From a virus, in IMG/VR virus record IMGVR_UViG_3300028559_000218, positions 1-21,245 of that record: a stretch of 21,245 nt of DNA; one strand, written 5' to 3'. A program made the position numbers and the translations under genes. The notes below the pieces were generated by a model that had not been told where the DNA came from, did no database searches, and saw only the letters and a program-made list of their open reading frames with translations. Position 1 is the stretch's first letter. Each line of letters starts with the position of its first letter. Shown in pieces: positions 2,682-15,025 of this stretch.

Positions 2682-2860
2682 TTAGGTTTAATTGAATATA
2701 GCTCTGGTTTTGTAGTAATTTTATTCAAATAATTTTTCGCATTTGTTAAACCATCTTTACTATATGGAAAAACACCATACTGAAAATTATCTTTTTTTGA
2801 GATTAAGATGTAGTATTTTTTCTTTTTAAGTTTTGTTTTTTTTATTTTATTCTTTTTCAT
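2678..2860 (-). CDS. Hypothetical small basic protein
   Basis: A 60-residue protein with a lysine-dense N-terminus (about 10 Lys in the first 15 residues), followed by YYILISKKDNFQYGVFPYSKDGL, which could form a short beta hairpin. The charge suggests nucleic-acid contact, but no family is recognised. It overlaps the upstream gene by 14 bases and the downstream gene by four. Confidence 0.6.
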   Translation of the reverse strand: MKKNKIKKTKLKKKKYYILISKKDNFQYGVFPYSKDGLTNAKNYLNKITTKPELYSIKPK

Positions 2861-3092
2861 TGTTTAAATATTGTTTTATTTTTTCCCAATGGTTTTTGCT
2901 CACGCCAAGCCGACTATTCTCCGCTAGTCTATATGCATTTTTAGCTTTTGAGTCTGGTACTTCTTCTGATAACTGTATATCAGATGGAATAGAGTCTACA
3001 TAATTTGTTATTAAGACTTTCATATGATCATCAAGTTTATGAAAATATGATGCCATTTTGTAAAGATGAACCTTTATTGATTCCTTATTCAT
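2847..3092 (-). CDS. Hypothetical helical protein
   Basis: An 81-residue protein beginning MNKESIKVHLYKMASYFHKLDDHMK. I chose the ATG at 3092-3090, 8 bases inside the end of the ACP gene. The longer reading from 3119 would overlap ACP by 35 bases. It appears all-helical, with a conserved-looking central loop SEEVPDSKAKNAYRLAENSR. Its position directly after ACP could mean a link to the ACP pathway, but nothing in the sequence shows this. Confidence 0.6.
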   Translation of the reverse strand: MNKESIKVHLYKMASYFHKLDDHMKVLITNYVDSIPSDIQLSEEVPDSKAKNAYRLAENSRLGVSKNHWEKIKQYLNNEKE

Positions 3093-3357
3093 TTCGTTTT
3101 TGTATTTTAAAATCAACAAATTCTATAAATTCGTTAAATGTTCTTTCTTTTATGTTTAGTTCTTTAATGTCTTTTGCTGTAGAGATCAATTGAATTTTAT
3201 ATTTATCTTCTATTTCAGAGCATATAGACAACAAAGAAAGAGAATCTATATTTAGGGTACCCATTTTAACATTAATATGGTCTTCAATTTGATTTTCTGA
3301 AAAATTCGTTTCTTTGATAATTAAAGACTTAATAAAGTCAACTTCTTGAGTATTCAT
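3085..3357 (-). CDS. Acyl carrier protein
   Basis: A 90-residue acidic protein with the four-helix ACP pattern. It has the phosphopantetheine attachment motif IDSLSLLSI with Ser39 preceded by Asp38 and followed by Leu40, then an acidic helix (SEIEDKYKI). In this family, a holo-ACP synthase transfers 4'-phosphopantetheine from CoA to the Ser, and the carrier then holds acyl or aminoacyl groups as thioesters. A holo-ACP synthase gene is present 1.9 kb upstream in the same operon. It follows the adenylosuccinate synthetase by 12 bases. A TATAAT (3369-3364) lies 6 bases before the ATG but without a good -35 box. Its partner enzyme is not visible in the window. Confidence 0.85.
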   Translation of the reverse strand: MNTQEVDFIKSLIIKETNFSENQIEDHINVKMGTLNIDSLSLLSICSEIEDKYKIQLISTAKDIKELNIKERTFNEFIEFVDFKIQKRNE

Positions 3358-3369
3358 ATTAATATTATA

Positions 3370-4362
3370 TTAAATATTCTCTTTATCTCCAGAAAATACA
3401 ACATCACAATAAGTTTTTAATTCTCTTGATATATACTCTTTCATGTTGTCAAAATCATTAAATTTAATAAAATTTGGACCTAATTCATTATCTAATCTTA
3501 TTTTAAATATATTTAACTCTTGTAAGATATCGCATTTATTAATAATCAATTTGTTTGTTCCAGATATTTTTATAGCATTTAATAGTCTATTAAAATTAAG
3601 CCAGTTTACGAGTCTTTTTCTTCCTGTGGTCGTTCCATATTCTTTACCTAAATCTATAATTTTATTCAACTCTTCATTTAGCCATAGTGATTCTGGAAAT
3701 AATGGATCAACTCCACTTTTAGTATCATAAATTTTAGCTACTCCAATAATATCTCTTATTTTTTTAGGGCTAAAACCTAATGAGCAAGCAGAATATGGTA
3801 GAGTCTCGCTACTTGTAACATAAGGATAATCACCATAATTTAAATCTAACCAAAAGCTTTGAGCACCTTCACAAAGAATATCACCATCAAGATCTCCATC
3901 CCAAATGTACTTTTTATCTAAATAATCTTTAGCAAGTTTGCCTACTCTTAAAGCTTTATCAGAATAACATGGAGCAATTCCTTGACCAGTTGTACCAAGT
4001 TTTGGTTTTAAAAATTTAAGATCATACTGAATATGTCTTTCAGTAATAATATGAGTTTTTGCACTTACTTTGATTAATGATGTGTCAAAACCTTCTTTTG
4101 AAAGATATTCTAGTTCATCAAAAAACTTATCAATATTGATAACGCAATTTGGACCAATAATTGATTTCTTATTATGAAATACTCCAGAAGGAATAATGTG
4201 TGTTTTGTATTTTTTTCCATTTAAATAAACCGTATGTCCAGCATTTGGGCCACCATTCCATCTACATACATAATCATATTTATTAGATAAAGCATTAGAA
4301 ATCTTGCCTTTGCCTTCATCTCCCCAGCATAAGCCAAAGATGATATCTACTGCATTAATCAT
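3370..4362 (-). CDS. purA: Short adenylosuccinate synthetase (PurA/PurZ family)
   Basis: A 330-residue enzyme. The family joins aspartate to a 6-oxopurine nucleotide using GTP; PurA uses IMP, and phage PurZ uses dGMP. Seen here: WGDEGKGK at 13-20 with Asp15 at the catalytic-base position, NAGHT at 40-44 with His43, TTGQGIAP at 124-131, EGAQ at 165-168, YPYVTSSET, TTTGRKR at 244-250 with the aspartate-binding arginines, NKCD at 275-278 and a C-terminal VVFSGDKE like the guanine-binding loop. Bacterial PurA has about 430 residues, so loops are trimmed, as in phage and archaeal relatives. As I recall, PurZ proteins replace the catalytic Asp by Ser. Asp is kept here, which favours PurA-type chemistry. 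The usual TTGRGI is TTGQGI. The gene overlaps its upstream neighbour by one base (TAATG). Confidence 0.88.
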   Translation of the reverse strand: MINAVDIIFGLCWGDEGKGKISNALSNKYDYVCRWNGGPNAGHTVYLNGKKYKTHIIPSGVFHNKKSIIGPNCVINIDKFFDELEYLSKEGFDTSLIKVSAKTHIITERHIQYDLKFLKPKLGTTGQGIAPCYSDKALRVGKLAKDYLDKKYIWDGDLDGDILCEGAQSFWLDLNYGDYPYVTSSETLPYSACSLGFSPKKIRDIIGVAKIYDTKSGVDPLFPESLWLNEELNKIIDLGKEYGTTTGRKRLVNWLNFNRLLNAIKISGTNKLIINKCDILQELNIFKIRLDNELGPNFIKFNDFDNMKEYISRELKTYCDVVFSGDKENI

Positions 4363-4580
4363 TACTCGCAGTTATAAAATCTACTTGGGCTTCTTACATC
4401 AAAAATAGAAACATTCTGTTCTTTTTTATCATTAAAAATATTTAAAGTCTCATGGTCGATAACTTTATTTACTAAACCACAATACCCCTCTTGAGTTAGG
4501 CTATTTGTAATAACGAATACTCTCTTACCAAGCATTCTTTTAAGAATGTTTGCTTTTGTTTTATTTAATGTTGCGTCCAT
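4362..4580 (-). CDS. Hypothetical protein
   Basis: A 72-residue protein. After a helical N-terminus (MDATLNKTKANILKRMLG) it appears beta-rich (KRVFVITNSL; GYCGLVNKVID; NVSIFDVRSPSRFY). It could be a small nucleic-acid-binding barrel, but no family is recognised. It lies 21 bases after the phosphoesterase gene and is coupled by one base to the synthetase gene. A GATAAT lies 8 bases before the ATG without a clear -35 box. Confidence 0.6.
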   Translation of the reverse strand: MDATLNKTKANILKRMLGKRVFVITNSLTQEGYCGLVNKVIDHETLNIFNDKKEQNVSIFDVRSPSRFYNCE

Positions 4581-4601
4581 ATTTATATATTATCCTATAT
4601 T

Positions 4602-5264
4602 TTAGCAAAAGTCCAGATCTATTTTACCTTTTTTATTAATTGTTACATAACTGCACTTTTCTTCGCAAAAACTACCAGTATTTATATAGTTGTCAGATAT
4701 CTCTGGTATGTGAGTATGACCACAAATTATCTTATTATATCCGTTTAGATTTATGTATTTTATTGCATTTTTTTTGACATCAGAGCTTTTCTCTACAAAG
4801 TCATTTGTTTTATTTTTAAAGATTCTAAAGAAATCATCGGCATAAGGAGTATATTTTCTAATAAAATAATAGCATTTAACTATAATATTCGTGATCCATT
4901 TGTATTTTGTAAAGTATATATCAAAGACATCTCCATGTACGACAAGAATTTTATTCTTATTGTATTCAAGGACGTAATCATTTTCACATTTAAATCCTAA
5001 TAGAATACTCATAAATTCAGCCTTAAGAAAACAGTGATTACCAATTAAATATATAATCTTACATTTTTTAGAAAGCTTTCTTAATTTTGAAAGGACTTTC
5101 CAGTGTTCTTTTTTAAGTCTATGCAAATTATGATGATCAAATAAATCTCCAGCAATAATTATTTTATTGGCTTTAATATTTTTTAAGACTTTTAAAAGTC
5201 TATCTGGATGGCAATCTTTTGAACCCAAATGAACATCTGAAAAAATCAAAACATCAGTTTTCAT
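4602..5264 (-). CDS. Calcineurin-like metallophosphoesterase, LpxH-like
   Basis: A 220-residue two-metal phosphoesterase. The motifs are SDVHLG with D10/H12, GDLFD with D40, GNHC at 75-78, VVHGDVFD with H110, and CGHTHIP at 181-187 followed by YINTGSFCEE. Their order and spacing resemble the UDP-2,3-diacylglucosamine hydrolase group (LpxH and relatives), which acts in lipid A synthesis at the inner membrane face. The usual GNHD is GNHC here; His77 is kept, so the protein may still be active. Residues 120-150 hold a Tyr/Phe-rich amphipathic segment. It is coupled by one base to the holo-ACP synthase gene. A nucleotide or nucleic-acid phosphatase role is the main alternative. Confidence 0.8.
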   Translation of the reverse strand: MKTDVLIFSDVHLGSKDCHPDRLLKVLKNIKANKIIIAGDLFDHHNLHRLKKEHWKVLSKLRKLSKKCKIIYLIGNHCFLKAEFMSILLGFKCENDYVLEYNKNKILVVHGDVFDIYFTKYKWITNIIVKCYYFIRKYTPYADDFFRIFKNKTNDFVEKSSDVKKNAIKYINLNGYNKIICGHTHIPEISDNYINTGSFCEEKCSYVTINKKGKIDLDFC

Positions 5265-5578
5265 TACTTACTTTTCATATTTAAAACAATTGCAGTAGCA
5301 TATTCTTTTTCATGACTTATTGACACACATGCTTTAATTTTCTTGCCTTTTATATAAATGCATGGCTTATTATTTTTAGTTAAAATTTCAATCTCTTTAT
5401 TTATATATGGTAAGCCAGCTTTAAAAGCAGCTTCTTTAGCTGCCCATTTTCCAGCTAATTTTTGATGTATGTTAGATTTTGTTGTTTCTAAAATCTCTTT
5501 ATCTGAAAAGATTTTACTGAAAAAAGAATATTTTTTATTTGTGAATCTATTAATTTCTACAATATCTATACCGATCAT
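5264..5578 (-). CDS. acpS: Holo-[acyl-carrier-protein] synthase
   Basis: A 104-residue protein, slightly shorter than bacterial AcpS (about 120). It opens with MIGIDIVEINRF, where Asp5 is the expected magnesium ligand, and carries LAGKWAAKEAAFKAG with Glu49 as the second ligand. The C-terminal strand pattern is VSISHEKEYATAIVL. The enzyme moves 4'-phosphopantetheine from CoA to a serine of a carrier protein, and the likely substrate is the ACP encoded at 3085-3357 in the same operon. Upstream it starts 2 bases after the GMP reductase-like gene, and downstream it overlaps the phosphoesterase by one base. All expected signature residues are present, so it is probably active. Confidence 0.88.
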   Translation of the reverse strand: MIGIDIVEINRFTNKKYSFFSKIFSDKEILETTKSNIHQKLAGKWAAKEAAFKAGLPYINKEIEILTKNNKPCIYIKGKKIKACVSISHEKEYATAIVLNMKSK

Positions 5579-5580
5579 AA

Positions 5581-6687
5581 TTATTTTCCATGAGCGAAAG
5601 CTTCATACATGCTATTTGCAGTTGGAGATATAACTTTTACTTTGTTTTCCCAAATTGCACCACGCATCTCTTCTATGCTTCTAAATCCAAGATAGCTCAT
5701 CGCACTTCTTAAACCATTTGCATAATCATAAACTACATCTTCTATGGATTTATCTTTGATCAAGGGAATCAAAGTTTTGTCTCCTTCTACAAAAAGATTT
5801 TTTTTGCTTCCATCATAAAGTTCATAATCTTCAACAACATCTTTGCTTGCCATTCCTCTGTAAACTGCGAATAGTTCTCCATTCTTTTCTATGATATTCT
5901 CTTCGTCTACTACGTCTGCCAAGCCAGCAAATATCCTTCCACAAATAACTCCATCTGCACCACTAGCAATAGCTTTAACTAAATCTCTTGGATTTCTTAT
6001 TCCTCCATCAGCAAGAATACTTGGTCTATCTTCTTCTTTTGGATTTTCTTGACTAAAGTGATCTGCATTAGCAAGCTGATAATTTCTAATTGCTTCCCAA
6101 GCATAAGATAATCCAGTAACACTTGGACATCCAATTCCAGTTTTAATCTGAGTTAAACACATACTTCCTGGACCAATAAGATGTCTGAATCCATCAGCTT
6201 TTAAATTTGCTAATCTATAAACGCTTGGTTTTGTTAAAGTATTTCCAACGATAATATCTTGTTTGTATGTTGATTGTTTATACCAAATTAAGAAATCTTC
6301 TACGCTTTTAGCTAAACCATTAGCTGTATCTAAAAACAATATATCTGTGTTTTTATTTAATTCTTTTATTCTATAAGATGCGTCTTTTAAACCGATAGCA
6401 GAAATGCAGAATCCACTTTGATCTTTGATCTTACCAGCTTTTAAAGCTTGTTCTTCTGCACTCATGAATCTATGCAAAACTCCTGCTCCACCAATTTTAT
6501 TTATTTTTATACAAGACTTCACAGAAGAAACTGTATCCATTGGGGATAAAATAATTGGAATGTCTATATACTTATTTTTAGAAATTTTAGTTATAGTGTT
6601 TACTTCTTTTCTAGATGAAATATCTGAAAAGTTTGGTAACAAGCATATATCATCATAACCCAAGCCCATTTCTATTTGTATCTTCAT
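5581..6687 (-). CDS. GMP reductase / IMP dehydrogenase family enzyme
   Basis: A 368-residue TIM-barrel enzyme. Visible motifs are GYDDICLLP at the N-terminus, LDTANG at 119-124, the catalytic loop IGPGSMCLTQIKTG with Cys177 and Thr179, ADGGIRNPRD at 227-235, YRGMASK at 276-282 and EGDKTLIP with Glu301. There is no CBS-domain insert, and the length is near GMP reductase (about 345) rather than IMP dehydrogenase (about 490). The Arg-Tyr pair that IMP dehydrogenase carries in its flap is not seen, so reduction of GMP to IMP is the better guess. It shares an operon with an adenylosuccinate synthetase, which would use IMP. Exact activity needs an assay; confidence in the superfamily is high. Confidence 0.85.
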   Translation of the reverse strand: MKIQIEMGLGYDDICLLPNFSDISSRKEVNTITKISKNKYIDIPIILSPMDTVSSVKSCIKINKIGGAGVLHRFMSAEEQALKAGKIKDQSGFCISAIGLKDASYRIKELNKNTDILFLDTANGLAKSVEDFLIWYKQSTYKQDIIVGNTLTKPSVYRLANLKADGFRHLIGPGSMCLTQIKTGIGCPSVTGLSYAWEAIRNYQLANADHFSQENPKEEDRPSILADGGIRNPRDLVKAIASGADGVICGRIFAGLADVVDEENIIEKNGELFAVYRGMASKDVVEDYELYDGSKKNLFVEGDKTLIPLIKDKSIEDVVYDYANGLRSAMSYLGFRSIEEMRGAIWENKVKVISPTANSMYEAFAHGK

Positions 6688-6688
6688 A

Positions 6689-6982
6689 TTATATCTCTAG
6701 TAATGCTCCGTCTGTTTTTAATACATATATATAATCTGTGTCTTCTTTTTCTTTTATGATTTTTATTTCTTCTGGTGTTAAAAATTTATCAAGACTATCT
6801 TTTGTGCTATTTAAAAAATTCATATGATTTTTATTACAAGGACAATTTGGATTATCTGCGACTTTACTATATATATCCTTATAGATCATCATTTGTTGAT
6901 TTACGCCTTTTAAATTATAAGAATTTATAATAGTCATTAATTCCCAATGTTTTTCTATATAAAGAGGCTTTCTTTCACTCAT
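6689..6982 (-). CDS. Hypothetical protein
   Basis: A 97-residue soluble protein. The centre has NPNCPCNKNHM (Cys49/Cys51 near His54), which could bind a metal, and the C-terminal half is acidic and helical (LTPEEIKIIKEKED) before a beta end YIYVLKTDGALLEI. A purine-rich AAAGGA about 10 bases before the ATG can serve as a ribosome site. It overlaps the upstream membrane-protein gene by 8 bases. No family is recognised. Confidence 0.65.
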   Translation of the reverse strand: MSERKPLYIEKHWELMTIINSYNLKGVNQQMMIYKDIYSKVADNPNCPCNKNHMNFLNSTKDSLDKFLTPEEIKIIKEKEDTDYIYVLKTDGALLEI

Positions 6983-7310
6983 GCTTGATATTCCTTTCCA
7001 CTATAGTATATAATACTACAATTATAACATAAATAAAACCAAAATATTTTATATTTGTAAAAAAAGATATCAATAAAGCTGCCCAAAATGACAAACAATA
7101 AATGCAAGAGATAAGTCTAGTAAAAAAACTATTATAGTTTATAAATAGAAATTTTGGTAAATTGTTATTAAGCCCTGCATTTTTTGCTTTTTCATATTCT
7201 TTTATTATTTTAAAATTAAAGAATTTTAAATATTCATAAACTGCATCTGTTTTCAACCATATGAAAATAAATGAAAACGCTATTAAAGAATATAAAATTG
7301 CTTCTTTCAT
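6975..7310 (-). CDS. Membrane protein, DUF1360-like
   Basis: A 111-residue integral membrane protein. Hydrophobic segments lie at about residues 5-20 (ILYSLIAFSFIFIWL), 66-84 (LISCIYCLSFWAALLISFF) and 88-105 (YFGFIYVIIVVLYTIV). The CIYCLSFW motif at the start of the second segment is like the CxxCxxFW signature of the small DUF1360 membrane family found in phages and bacteria; its function is unknown to me. It overlaps both neighbours (ATGA upstream, 8 bases downstream). It may act in the host envelope, which would fit the LpxH-like enzyme in the operon, but this is a guess. Confidence 0.7.
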   Translation of the reverse strand: MKEAILYSLIAFSFIFIWLKTDAVYEYLKFFNFKIIKEYEKAKNAGLNNNLPKFLFINYNSFFTRLISCIYCLSFWAALLISFFTNIKYFGFIYVIIVVLYTIVERNIKHE

Positions 7311-7822
7311 TCTGGACTTTCTGGATTATATGAAGCTTTTTTGTCGGACCTTAGAGATTTTGAATAGGTCAATGGTTTTGTATACTCTTTTTCATTAGAA
7401 GAGCTATAGGTTGAGTTGTATTTTTTTGTAGAAAATTGAATGGACGTATTTGCACCTTTTGGTTTTTCTATACTCTGCTCAGATGATGGATTAAAACTTG
7501 AAATATATCTATCTGGAAATTGGTTTGGATAAACTGTGTTTGTGCCGTACGTTCTATATACTGCCCATTTTTGCGAAGGATGATTATCTCCATAATTCTG
7601 TTTTCTTACTATAAAAGAAGGAAATTGTCTGTGATAAATTGTGTTTGTGCCTAAAGAGTCAAATAACCAGTATTCATTTTCATTCATTTTTCTTGCAGTC
7701 ATAGAAGGAAATTGCCTTGGATAGACTGAATTGGTGCCAAATGTTCTTGTTATAGTTGCTTCTTGATATTGAGCAAACAAATTAAAACAAAACAAATTTA
7801 GAAGTAGAATATATTTAATCAT
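7307..7822 (-). CDS. Secreted protein with three GTNxxYxxQFP repeats
   Basis: A 171-residue protein. Residues 1-17 are a signal peptide (MIKYILLLNLFCFNLFA), followed by three spaced copies of one motif: GTNSVYPRQFP (29-39), GTNTIYHRQFP (58-68) and GTNTVYPNQFP (93-103). An aromatic/basic residue pair often precedes the motif (RTFG, RTYG). The C-terminal 65 residues are Ser/Tyr/Lys-rich and probably disordered. It is likely exported to the periplasm or cell surface of the infected cell. I recognise no family. It is coupled on both sides by four-base overlaps, so it is made together with nucleotide enzymes. Confidence 0.75.
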   Translation of the reverse strand: MIKYILLLNLFCFNLFAQYQEATITRTFGTNSVYPRQFPSMTARKMNENEYWLFDSLGTNTIYHRQFPSFIVRKQNYGDNHPSQKWAVYRTYGTNTVYPNQFPDRYISSFNPSSEQSIEKPKGANTSIQFSTKKYNSTYSSSNEKEYTKPLTYSKSLRSDKKASYNPESPE

Positions 7823-8232
7823 ATTAAGTTTATATTTGATTTTGGTAGTATAAGCAAATCTGCAATTTTATCTCCTATAAAAATGTTGTGCTTTGTTTTT
7901 TCTCCAAAAAACCTTTCTTTGTCTGATATCATAAGAATGCCTTTAGGTATATTAATATTAGTTATGATTAATTGCAAGTCATTTCTTTCGCCAACGATAA
8001 TATCGTTAAGTACGTTTATTCCATATTTGATATATAAATCTTTTTTTGGCAAGATCAATCCTATGAAATCATTTGATATTTTAATATTTAAAAATGTTCT
8101 TAAGAAATGCCTCTCTCCTGGAAGAATAGACATTCTTTCTGCACTATGAATTTCTATCAAGCCTTCAGAATTTAATTGAAGGTTTTTAGCTTTATCTAAA
8201 ATTTTTGTATAATTAACTTGTGCAGGGTTCAT
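7819..8232 (-). CDS. dUTPase-fold protein with degenerate active site
   Basis: A 137-residue protein with the trimeric dUTPase / dCTP deaminase pattern. SAERMSILPGERHFLRTFLNIKI corresponds to the first beta region, LILPKKDLYIKYGINV to the PRSGLA...G motif, VGERNDLQLIITN to motif 3, and GDKIADLLILP to the GDRIAQLxxxP motif. Key catalytic features are missing or changed: no AGxDL, no IDxDYRG aspartate/tyrosine, and no C-terminal Gly-rich motif 5. It may be an inactive regulator or structural relative, or a diverged dCTP deaminase-type enzyme. It overlaps the dCMP deaminase gene by 20 bases, which supports a link to pyrimidine deoxynucleotides. Confidence 0.65.
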   Translation of the reverse strand: MNPAQVNYTKILDKAKNLQLNSEGLIEIHSAERMSILPGERHFLRTFLNIKISNDFIGLILPKKDLYIKYGINVLNDIIVGERNDLQLIITNINIPKGILMISDKERFFGEKTKHNIFIGDKIADLLILPKSNINLI

Positions 8233-8638
8233 ATTTTATGAGTTTTATTTTATGAAATTTAAATATTTCTTTTGATTGAGTATCTTTATCGTATTCTTCA
8301 AGGTAAAATACTTTCTCTATTCCGTATGAAGCTATATTGATTGCACAACAAGAGCAAGGTAAAAGAGTCGAGGCTAAAATATATGGGTTATCGTATCTAG
8401 TTATGCAAGATAAAGCATTGGTTTCTGCATGAATTATGTATTTTCTTCTATTATCCCTATCTTTCCAAAAATGACTACCTTTTTGATCTTTGGGCTTAAT
8501 GCCATTGTATCCAATGCTTAAAACTCTACCATTTTTATCTAAAATAGATGCTCCTACTTTTTGATATGGATCTTCTGATCTTTTAGATGCAGTTAAAGCT
8601 ATGTTCATTGCCATATCTATAAAAGATATTCTTTTCAT
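8213..8638 (-). CDS. Deoxycytidylate (dCMP) deaminase
   Basis: A 141-residue zinc-dependent deaminase that would convert dCMP to dUMP, feeding thymidylate synthesis in an A+T-rich phage. The zinc and catalytic motifs are H70-A-E72 in IIHAETNAL and PCSCC at 94-98 (C95 and C98 as the PCxxC pair). The N-terminal DPYQKVGASILDKNGRVLSIGYNG is the usual substrate-binding stretch. The start is fixed by a four-base overlap with a micropeptide gene upstream. Lengths and motifs fit phage dCMP deaminases such as T4 cd. A cytidine or tRNA deaminase is less likely given the GYNGxxPK motif. Confidence 0.9.
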   Translation of the reverse strand: MKRISFIDMAMNIALTASKRSEDPYQKVGASILDKNGRVLSIGYNGIKPKDQKGSHFWKDRDNRRKYIIHAETNALSCITRYDNPYILASTLLPCSCCAINIASYGIEKVFYLEEYDKDTQSKEIFKFHKIKLIKYEPCTS

Positions 8639-8738: not shown

Positions 8739-10175
8739 TTATATATATCTTGCTATGATCAAGGGATCTGAACCATATCCACCTGATCTATATGTAACCT
8801 CACCATTACCAGTATCAAGTATTGTACCAGCAGCTCCACCACATCCTCCAAAACCGTAGAATTGATAATAACCAGCATCTCCATACATATATATAACTGT
8901 GTCATTATCGTCCCTATTTGGACCTCCTCTAGCAGAATAAGAAGAAGGAACTTCAAGCCTTGCAGGATGTTGAGAGCCAGAATAAGCATTGTACTGTATT
9001 GTTCCGTTATCTAGATAACTATATCCACCTGCTCCACCAGCAGCTGCACCCGTAGTACTAGCAGGAGTTGCTCTGCCTCCACCAGCTCCTCCTCCACAAA
9101 CATATGGTCTTTTTCCAGAACTATTTGTAGCCCATCCATCAGCTAATTGTATACCTTGTCCTCCGTGACCCCCCATATAATTTCTACCTCCTACATTAGC
9201 ACCTCCTCCTAATCCTCCTCCACCACCTCCTCCCCATATATTTGTGCCACTATTTCCAGATCCAGCAGCTCCACTAGTAGTTCCTCCTCCACCAGTATAA
9301 GTTATTAATGATCCAAAACCGCCACCTCCACAACTACTTGTTCCTAATCCTGCACTTGGACTCGCTACTAGCTGTAAGCTTAATGAAAAAACAGAATTTC
9401 GATTTACTTGACCAAAATTTCCATAATTTGTGCCATAAGTTCTATTTTCAAAAACATATTGTCTATTGCTTCCACTTTGACCATATCTAAAATAACTTGT
9501 TGCTTTTCCTCCGTTTCCACCATTATAATAAGTTCCACCAGCGCCTCCTCCAGCAGCATAAGCAATGTTTCCATTATCAGTGCTACTAGTTGATATTCTA
9601 GCTGGGCCACCATATTCTGTATGTCCGTTCCCTGAATATGTAGCAGCAAAATATTGATTATCTGTTAATTCGACGCCATTTCGGGTGCCTAAATCATTTG
9701 CACCATTACCTCCAGCTATTGCAAAATTTAGAGTATCAAAGTAAAAAGAATTAGCTTTAAGGTAAAAAAGAGGTGAATAATAACTTACTCCTGATGATTT
9801 TGTGCTACTCCAATATGCTGATGGTATATATTTTATTCCTCCACCACCTCCTCCTCCACCACCACCAAAACCACCACCTCCACCACCGCCAATTAAAAGA
9901 AATTCTATATTTTTTGATCCTACAATATTAAGAGTGGTTTGGATGGAGGATATTAATCTATAATTATATCCTCCATATGTATAAGATGATCCGCCACTAA
10001 AAGTCATTGAACTAAAATAAACTTTTCCATAAGCATTATTTAAGCCTATTGCTCCACTTGATGCTCCTAACAAGCTTCTGACATTTGCATCATTTAAGCT
10101 TATTGCTCCAGCAGCTTGTTCTAATTCTACTCTGATATTATCTATACTAATTAATCCACTACTTTGTAAAGCCAT
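8739..10175 (-). CDS. Glycine-rich probable tail/virion protein
   Basis: A 478-residue protein. Residues 1-52 carry three related short repeats (GLISIDNIRVEL, GAISLNDANVRSLLG, GAIGLNNAYGK) of a type I associate with the N-terminus of marine phage tail or baseplate-associated proteins. The remainder is rich in Gly, Ser, Tyr and Asn with several poly-Gly runs (about residues 95-112 and others spaced along the chain), suggesting a glycine-rich adhesin or fibre that folds without a hydrophobic core. There is no signal peptide. It starts 22 bases after the stop of the 10198-10635 gene, probably in one leftward unit. It is probably exposed on the virion; receptor binding is a guess. Confidence 0.7.
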   Translation of the reverse strand: MALQSSGLISIDNIRVELEQAAGAISLNDANVRSLLGASSGAIGLNNAYGKVYFSSMTFSGGSSYTYGGYNYRLISSIQTTLNIVGSKNIEFLLIGGGGGGGFGGGGGGGGGGIKYIPSAYWSSTKSSGVSYYSPLFYLKANSFYFDTLNFAIAGGNGANDLGTRNGVELTDNQYFAATYSGNGHTEYGGPARISTSSTDNGNIAYAAGGGAGGTYYNGGNGGKATSYFRYGQSGSNRQYVFENRTYGTNYGNFGQVNRNSVFSLSLQLVASPSAGLGTSSCGGGGFGSLITYTGGGGTTSGAAGSGNSGTNIWGGGGGGGLGGGANVGGRNYMGGHGGQGIQLADGWATNSSGKRPYVCGGGAGGGRATPASTTGAAAGGAGGYSYLDNGTIQYNAYSGSQHPARLEVPSSYSARGGPNRDDNDTVIYMYGDAGYYQFYGFGGCGGAAGTILDTGNGEVTYRSGGYGSDPLIIARYI

Positions 10176-14132: not shown

Positions 14133-14388
14133 AATTCAATTCAAGCTCTAAAGGATTCACTGGTTGGCCTCTATCAAATCTTTTGATAAAGTTTGTTCCT
14201 TTAGATGGCATATTAGCTACATAAGATTTTTTATTTTTAAACGAAATCTTAACATGGTCTGCTAATACAGATACTGAATCTAGATTTTTGATGCTAGATT
14301 TCAATGATCTTGCTATAGCACAGTCTTGAGGGTCAGCTAATGTGCCTTCTTTTATGTTTTTATTTGTTATCTTGATGTGTTTTTTCAT
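14125..14388 (-). CDS. Small conserved phage protein, hypothetical
   Basis: An 87-residue protein beginning MKKHIKITNKNIKEGTLADPQDCAIARSLK and ending FIKRFDRGQPVNPLELEL. From memory this layout (KITxxHIxxG...DCAIALALK...FIxxFDxGxPVxPxxF) belongs to a widespread small phage protein of unknown function. I chose the ATG at 14388 over the one at 14424 because the conserved pattern starts there and the overlap with the upstream gene is then only 29 bases. The conserved Cys in DCAIA is present. It is co-transcribed with the 14360-15025 gene. Confidence 0.65.
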   Translation of the reverse strand: MKKHIKITNKNIKEGTLADPQDCAIARSLKSSIKNLDSVSVLADHVKISFKNKKSYVANMPSKGTNFIKRFDRGQPVNPLELELNFV

Positions 14389-15025
14389 TTTTAGTTTCTC
14401 GTATTGCATACTCATAATTATCACTATCTTCAGTAACCCATTTTGGGCTATTCTCAGAAGTATATATATGAGAATTTATTTTTCTTTGCAACAATGACTC
14501 ATTTGGTTTTGTTGCGAAGCTTGGATCGAATACTTTTATTCTATTATTAGGTTGTATTGCGAAATTGCCATTGTCTAGTTTTATAACATGTCCAGCTTTA
14601 TGCTGATCTGGTTTTTGACTAAATCCAAAATTTAATTCATTGTAATCACTATGAGCCCAATCAAGAGTAAATAAATAGCGACCCATATACTCTTGACCAG
14701 TTCTTCCAGTATATTTTATTACTTTATTTTCTAATAAATAAAAAGTTGTTACAGATATATGATAACTAAAACTATCCCAAAGTTCTAGTTCAGTAAGCTC
14801 CATATCTGGTGCATCTTCTTTTGAACAGAAAGCACTAATAGGAGCATGCCACCATATTCCACCATCTTCCATAAGAAAATTAAAAAGAGGAACTTGACTC
14901 GGTAAACTTGTAACGCCAAAAATTAAACATTTATATTTTTTATCAAAACTGTCTTCTTGATTTCTTAGGTAGTTACCTCGAACAAAGCATTCGATTGGAG
15001 GTATATTTGTATTAAGAAATGCCAT
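14360..15025 (-). CDS. Hypothetical protein
   Basis: A 221-residue soluble protein. Features include PIECFVRGNYLRN near the start, GVTSLPSQVPLFNFLMEDGGIWWHAPISAFC (37-67), a Trp/Tyr-rich centre (ELWDSFSYHISVTTFYLL; YMGRYLFTLDWAHSDYNE), and HVIKLDNGNFAIQPNNRIKVFDPSF near 145-170. The aromatic conserved-looking blocks suggest an enzyme or binding protein, but no known catalytic motif is visible. It is transcribed divergently from PhoH across a shared regulatory region with a 9-bp inverted repeat. Confidence 0.7.
   Translation of the reverse strand: MAFLNTNIPPIECFVRGNYLRNQEDSFDKKYKCLIFGVTSLPSQVPLFNFLMEDGGIWWHAPISAFCSKEDAPDMELTELELWDSFSYHISVTTFYLLENKVIKYTGRTGQEYMGRYLFTLDWAHSDYNELNFGFSQKPDQHKAGHVIKLDNGNFAIQPNNRIKVFDPSFATKPNESLLQRKINSHIYTSENSPKWVTEDSDNYEYAIRETKNEKTHQDNK

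Follow-up and report, generated by a model that had tools for sequence, protein, structure and literature searches.

An acyl carrier protein and its putative activating synthase are encoded together in one operon in a clade of phages

Acyl carrier proteins (ACPs) encoded by phages are already known and have been read as auxiliary genes for fatty-acid synthesis (PMC8224337; PMC11705849), and their function has also been called unclear (PMC5463345). They include phrog_5934 and phrog_4154 and the ACPs of Erythrobacter R6L, Rhodobacteraceae prophages, Alteromonas R22Y and Xanthomonas phiXF1. Here we describe an ACP that shares an operon with a holo-ACP synthase (AcpS) in the IMG/VR virus record IMGVR_UViG_3300028559_000218, the whole of which (21,245 bases) is the window analysed. 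The ACP resembles the known phage ACPs in its intact attachment serine, and matches neither phrog_5934 nor phrog_4154. No phage ACP paired with AcpS was found in the literature and the phage collection searched, an absence that is not proof. An earlier note, made from the window's sequence alone, had proposed that the phage needs its own holo-ACP, and this proposal is supported in part: carrier and activator are intact, conserved, always found together and in the same operon positions. Judged from these sequences, it is very probable that holo-ACP of the phage's own is made.

Related IMG/VR records (25) were gathered by AcpS and GuaB scans, and profile searches were run over their full length. 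ACP was found in 11 and AcpS in 12 of them; the single record that has AcpS alone (G005) stops short of the ACP locus. All 11 records reaching both loci carry the two genes together, always in the same operon. Neither gene was detected by the full-length search in 10 other relatives, five of which are 106-172 kb long, and three records are cut just past GuaB. Every ACP-bearing record of the clade is a fragment. AcpS follows GuaB and ACP follows PurA throughout, one relative (L019) carrying a 1.7-kb insertion before AcpS; the scattered positions that the earlier note had named as evidence against itself were not seen. Among 16 records compared, the genes limited to the ACP-bearing clade are u97, u171, a dUTPase-like gene (11 of 11 clade records, none of the five others), u90, ACP and AcpS, and a dCMP deaminase-like gene is present in all 16. 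ACP and AcpS are a clade-specific addition to a shared nucleotide core. A tblastn search of the phage collection gave no match for the window ACP or AcpS in other phages. With E. coli AcpS as a query, only contamination-like bacterial records and MaAM05 were matched; the latter was rejected as a phage with AcpS, and is probably bacterial DNA because its neighbours are secDF, smc and scpAB.

The phage AcpS shares with bacterial AcpS (PF01648, TIGR00516/TIGR00556) the catalytic residues, the core motif and 34% identity to the E. coli enzyme, and differs in its smaller size (104 vs 126 aa, some 20 residues fewer) and in its phage operon context. It scored 42.7 bits against PF01648 (cut-off 25) and 65.2 bits against TIGR00556 (cut-off 45.35), and below the cut-off of TIGR00516. 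The earlier note had seen an intact Asp5 and Glu49, and both are invariant in 11 sequences, as are R11, K53, S88 and H89. These residues correspond to the catalytic set of Bacillus anthracis AcpS, Asp8/Glu58/Lys62/Ser102/His103, and R11 is the equivalent of the Arg14 that is contacted by ACP Asp35/Asp38 (PMC3447402). The ratio of nonsynonymous to synonymous substitution (dN/dS, Nei-Gojobori) is about 0.05-0.3, indicating purifying selection. A pattern scan of genome contigs, done to trace the cellular origin of the enzyme, yielded no AcpS relative.

The ACP had been credited with an intact DSL site at Ser39, which the open reading frame check and the alignment bore out: D38 and S39 are invariant in 11 aligned copies, and the DSx attachment motif is present. 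Against PF00550 the window protein scored 16.6 bits, under the Pfam cut-off of 20.8, and the ACP of a relative 23.5 bits, above it; a profile of the family finds ACPs in the PDB (8gsa, E 5e-6). An AlphaFold2 model (mean pLDDT 72) has the four-helix ACP fold with Ser39 at the start of helix II (residues 39-53), and its fold matches are almost only ACPs, among them 7qv0_D and 7auf (Z 11.2) and DltC (7r49_E, Z 10.7). DltC and other dedicated carriers resemble the phage protein as small carriers with a pathway of their own, but no DltA-like ligase was found and sequence identity to DltC is 11%. The ACP is also under purifying selection, with a dN/dS (Nei-Gojobori) of mostly 0.04-0.3.

Comparison of helix II separates this ACP from the carrier of type II fatty-acid synthase (FAS). 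In an alignment of the 11 phage ACPs with E. coli AcpP (this sequence, like that of the E. coli AcpS query, was taken from general knowledge), D35, S36 and E47 are kept, whereas the type II FAS recognition residues D38, E41 and M44 are replaced by S or A, S and S in all 11, a departure from AcpP. Helix II is the recognition surface for FAS enzymes and for SpoT (PMC3340395). The ACPs of phiXF1, Bajun and ctuI7215, in contrast, keep D38/E41/M44, and their whole records have no PF01648 match, unlike the AcpS-bearing window clade. The simplest reading of these sequences is that those three phages lend an FAS-type ACP to host enzymes, including the host AcpS, whereas this clade would have a dedicated carrier and, for that reason, an activator of its own. 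The phage ACP appears to differ from the bacterial fatty-acid carrier and probably serves a phage-specific job. A search with the ACP profile through 395 genomes from the phylum to which a Maribacter belongs, and 289 from that of a Verrucomicrobiales metagenome-assembled genome, gave only two weak matches in the two sets together, with uninformative neighbours.

We lean, by a modest degree, towards a phage-dedicated, self-activated carrier pair distinct from the host FAS carrier, working with the small protein u90 and/or a host enzyme. Because the catalytic residues are intact and invariant, the predicted role of AcpS is to transfer 4'-phosphopantetheine from host coenzyme A to Ser39 of the carrier. 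Since enzymes of the AcpS type can accept acyl-CoAs as well, the phage one may load a pre-acylated arm. The resulting holo- or acyl-ACP would not duplicate the host's carrier for fatty acids, because the helix by which it recognises partners has apparently been rebuilt, which would account for the presence of a phage-encoded activator. The carrier, presumably co-expressed with enzymes that retune nucleotides, would act together with a partner of its own (u90, whose gene overlaps that of ACP, is the likeliest, with c105 in some cases) and/or with a host enzyme.

The earlier note had suggested that one of the small operon proteins could be a transferase partner; no transferase match was obtained, and the candidates could be narrowed to u90 and, optionally, c105. 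The u90 gene shares 8 bp with the end of ACP, accompanies it in all records that extend over ACP and further on, and was seen only in this clade in a wider scan of viral contigs. DNA identity between the window and two relatives (L012 and L010) is about 0.8-0.95 from AcpS through the metallophosphoesterase to PurA (about 0.9 from the metallophosphoesterase to PurA), falls to 0.5-0.7 over ACP and u90, and then returns to 0.82-0.93. Furthermore, the 81-residue u90 of the window and two relatives (G001 and G012) pairs with DSL-type ACPs, and u90 of 106-110 residues with DSF-type ACPs. That ACP and u90 differ as a block and that their types covary fits a functional cassette exchanged in one piece, and puts u90 first among the candidate partners. 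The dUTPase-u171-DUF1360-u97 block (window 6690-8230), 0.56-0.75 identical to L012 and L010 with flanks at about 0.7-0.9, is an apparent second exchanged cassette.

The c105 gene (phrog_7084) lies directly beside AcpS or u90 in five ACP-bearing contigs, and no ACP-less locus examined has it. In the cyanophages syn9, S-RIM44 and P-TIM40 its homologues come immediately after a pair of tryptophan halogenase genes and also lie beside 2-oxoglutarate (2OG) oxygenases, with no ACP in these records. As an obligate partner c105 was rejected, being present in only five ACP-bearing contigs and having cyanophage homologues without ACP, and it is therefore at most optional. In three ACP-bearing relatives a 2OG-Fe(II) oxygenase (PF13759) adjoins an apparent carbamoyltransferase of the NodU/CmcH type (G003:18066-20188, G004:31418-33549, G008:1313-3441).

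Several observations weigh against a dedicated carrier pair. u90 has no Pfam match and no PDB fold match. Pfam searches of the examined parts of G018, and of G003 beyond its ACP, both incomplete genomes, found no loading enzyme, acyltransferase, ketosynthase, adenylation domain or ligase, or thioesterase. The AcpS of the window and that of L012 are 93% identical, while the ACPs beside them are only 46% identical, and AcpS therefore need not be specific to one ACP type. In addition, the GuaB tree requires four changes of the ACP/AcpS label, and the independent origins of the pair are few or unclear; since GuaB and the other surrounding genes are mosaic, the pair may trace to one or a few acquisitions. 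A more far-reaching form of the proposal is an orthogonal system evolved by the phage and standing apart from host fatty acid synthesis. In it AcpS and the redesigned ACP, with u90 and optionally c105 as a new family of partners, would load an acyl or aminoacyl group and hand it to a target peculiar to the phage; this form is tentative, and we consider it rather improbable.

The same helix II residues bear on two other explanations. The phage ACP could be an ordinary auxiliary gene that joins the host type II FAS for membrane lipids, AcpS raising the holo form, as known phage ACPs have been read (PMC8224337; PMC11705849; phrog_5934); the loss of D38, E41 and M44 in 11 of 11 phage ACPs and the lack of any FAS gene in those portions of clade records that were examined make this unlikely, if only slightly more so than the orthogonal system. 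Alternatively, the ACP might be a regulatory decoy that binds host SpoT, IscS or MukB and, for example, lowers ppGpp, which would suit a purine operon, as PurA and IMP dehydrogenase (IMPDH) are known ppGpp targets. E. coli ACP does bind SpoT, IscS and MukB, but SpoT is bound through the helix II residues L42, V43 and M44 (PMC3340395), the last of which is a serine here. A decoy, moreover, need not keep its own AcpS, and we regard this possibility as quite unlikely.

Two further explanations, both raised by the earlier note, depend on neighbouring genes. Remodelling of lipid A or the envelope by ACP, AcpS and an LpxH-like metallophosphoesterase together was suggested by the last of these, which gives weak LpxH-model matches and has LpxH (8s7f, E 5e-5) as its best PDB match. 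At the superfamily level the likeness stands: the enzyme has the calcineurin fold family, conserved metal ligands (D10, H12, D40, N76, H110, H183 and H185) and 23% identity in common with LpxH. It differs in having GNHC, invariant in 11 phage copies, where LpxH has GNRD, and misses all LpxH equivalog cut-offs (NCBIfam models, 51.2 vs 134 and 35.4 vs 190.35 bits). A profile scan of IMG/VR found 78 loci with the enzyme, most without ACP or AcpS; about 57 of them, 61-77% identical, have neither gene within the stretch examined, and in 19 of these the metallophosphoesterase gene sits immediately before the terminase module, on its upstream side, in stretches that hold no purine gene. One record (L017), conversely, has ACP and AcpS and lacks the metallophosphoesterase. 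The search for the trio in other phage genomes thus ruled it out as a unit: the metallophosphoesterase has no specific tie to the ACP/AcpS system and counts among the core genes of a much broader set of phages. Because the enzyme is not tied to ACP/AcpS and lacks GNRD, the lipid A explanation loses its basis, and we consider it highly improbable. Hardly more probable is the transfer of an acyl or aminoacyl group from the carrier to a nucleotide, a tRNA or a base of DNA. The shared operon with nucleotide enzymes and the small candidate partner proteins would fit it, but no transferase was recognised, and the nucleotide enzymes are core genes in relatives without ACP/AcpS, so this core does not explain the pair; the purine enzymes are accounted for by conversion of G to A and C to T pools.

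The metallophosphoesterase (IYLIGNHCFLKAEFMS; window 4602-5264, L118-L185) is unusually conserved across a wide group of uncultured phages, where it adjoins purine genes or the terminase module. Among cellular genomes, the nearest relatives found come from Bacteroidota, Verrucomicrobia and Ignavibacteria-type organisms, at 27-37% identity.

In the nucleotide core, the IMPDH-family enzyme has the CxTxxKTG-type loop of GMP reductase (SMCLTQIKTGIGCP vs SVCTTRVKTGVGYP in GuaC), and no CBS domains. Alignment with E. coli GuaC and GuaB showed that the Arg of the IMPDH RY flap dyad is missing and the Tyr present; the GMP reductase equivalog cut-offs are missed (135.1 vs 344 and 118.3 vs 465.65 bits). 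PurA keeps WGDEGKGK and TTTGRKR. Like the PurZ pathway for 2-aminoadenine DNA, the window has a phage-encoded enzyme of the PurA superfamily, but it scores as PurA (96 bits against the PurZ model, cut-off 300) and keeps WGDEGKGK, which rules out PurZ. ThyX and ribonucleotide reductase are encoded elsewhere in a related record (G018). Taken with the dCMP deaminase and dUTPase-like genes, these enzymes are predicted to convert GMP by way of IMP into AMP, and dCMP by way of dUMP into dTMP, shifting the pools from G to A and from C to T. The GC content of the window and its relatives is 28-32%, and this conversion set (window 3370-8638, minus strand; ThyX and ribonucleotide reductase in G018) is conserved in these AT-rich phages.

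All of these genes were judged real, and the open reading frames of the window were found at their listed positions. The single leftward operon seen in the earlier note is tight: it runs on the minus strand from 8638 (dCMP deaminase) down to 1973 (u71), with neighbours spaced by -20 to +21 bp, in the order dCMP deaminase, dUTPase-like, u171, DUF1360-like membrane protein, u97, GMP-reductase-like, AcpS, metallophosphoesterase, u72, PurA, ACP, u90, u60, u78, u87 and u71.

Table 1. Positions of the operon genes in the window, and of c105 in related records.
Feature	Position	Strand	Basis or remark
AcpS, holo-ACP synthase, 104 aa	5264..5578	-	directly after GMP-reductase-like gene; PF01648, TIGR00556
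ACP, 90 aa, Ser39 attachment site, non-FAS helix II	3085..3357	-	profile, AlphaFold2 fold
u90, candidate partner, small and helical, 81 aa counted from this start	2847..3092	-	co-occurrence
Calcineurin-type metallophosphoesterase, 220 aa	4602..5264	-	PF00149, 46.3 bits
PurA, adenylosuccinate synthetase, 330 aa, shared operon core	3370..4362	-	PF00709, 270 bits
GMP-reductase-like/IMPDH-family enzyme, no CBS domains, 368 aa, shared core	5581..6687	-	PF00478, 214 bits
dCMP deaminase-like, first operon gene, shared core	8213..8638	-	TIGR02571 and anti-phage dCTP deaminase models, below cut-off
dUTPase-like, clade-specific	7819..8232	-	relative's copy matches PF00692, 28.1 bits
u171, apparent signal peptide and repeats, clade-specific	7307..7822	-	
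Membrane protein, DUF1360-like	6975..7310	-	PF07098, 21.5 bits (cut-off 21)
u97, clade-specific	6689..6982	-	
u72, small protein between metallophosphoesterase and PurA	4362..4580	-	
c105 (phrog_7084)	G003:23864-24592, G004:28554-29303, G006:20583-21317, G008:9344-10087		beside AcpS or u90

In the u171 protein (window 7307-7822), conserved in the clade, a TFGTNSVYPRQFP-like repeat occurs three times. Outside the operon, the window encodes two tRNAs (696-858), tRNA-Asn(GTT) and a tRNA-Ser with the unusual anticodon ACT, a glycine-rich probable fibre gene (8739-10175) with a GC content of about 40%, far above the remaining window, and a protein (14360-15025) that matches phrog_3704, labelled ferredoxin, at E 8e-59 and has no Pfam family.

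The LpxH-like gene, tempting as part of a lipid A story, belongs to something else. A phage lineage with its own activator, and with a carrier that has shed the FAS residues, is a direct handle on the modification of phage ACPs and on their cargo.

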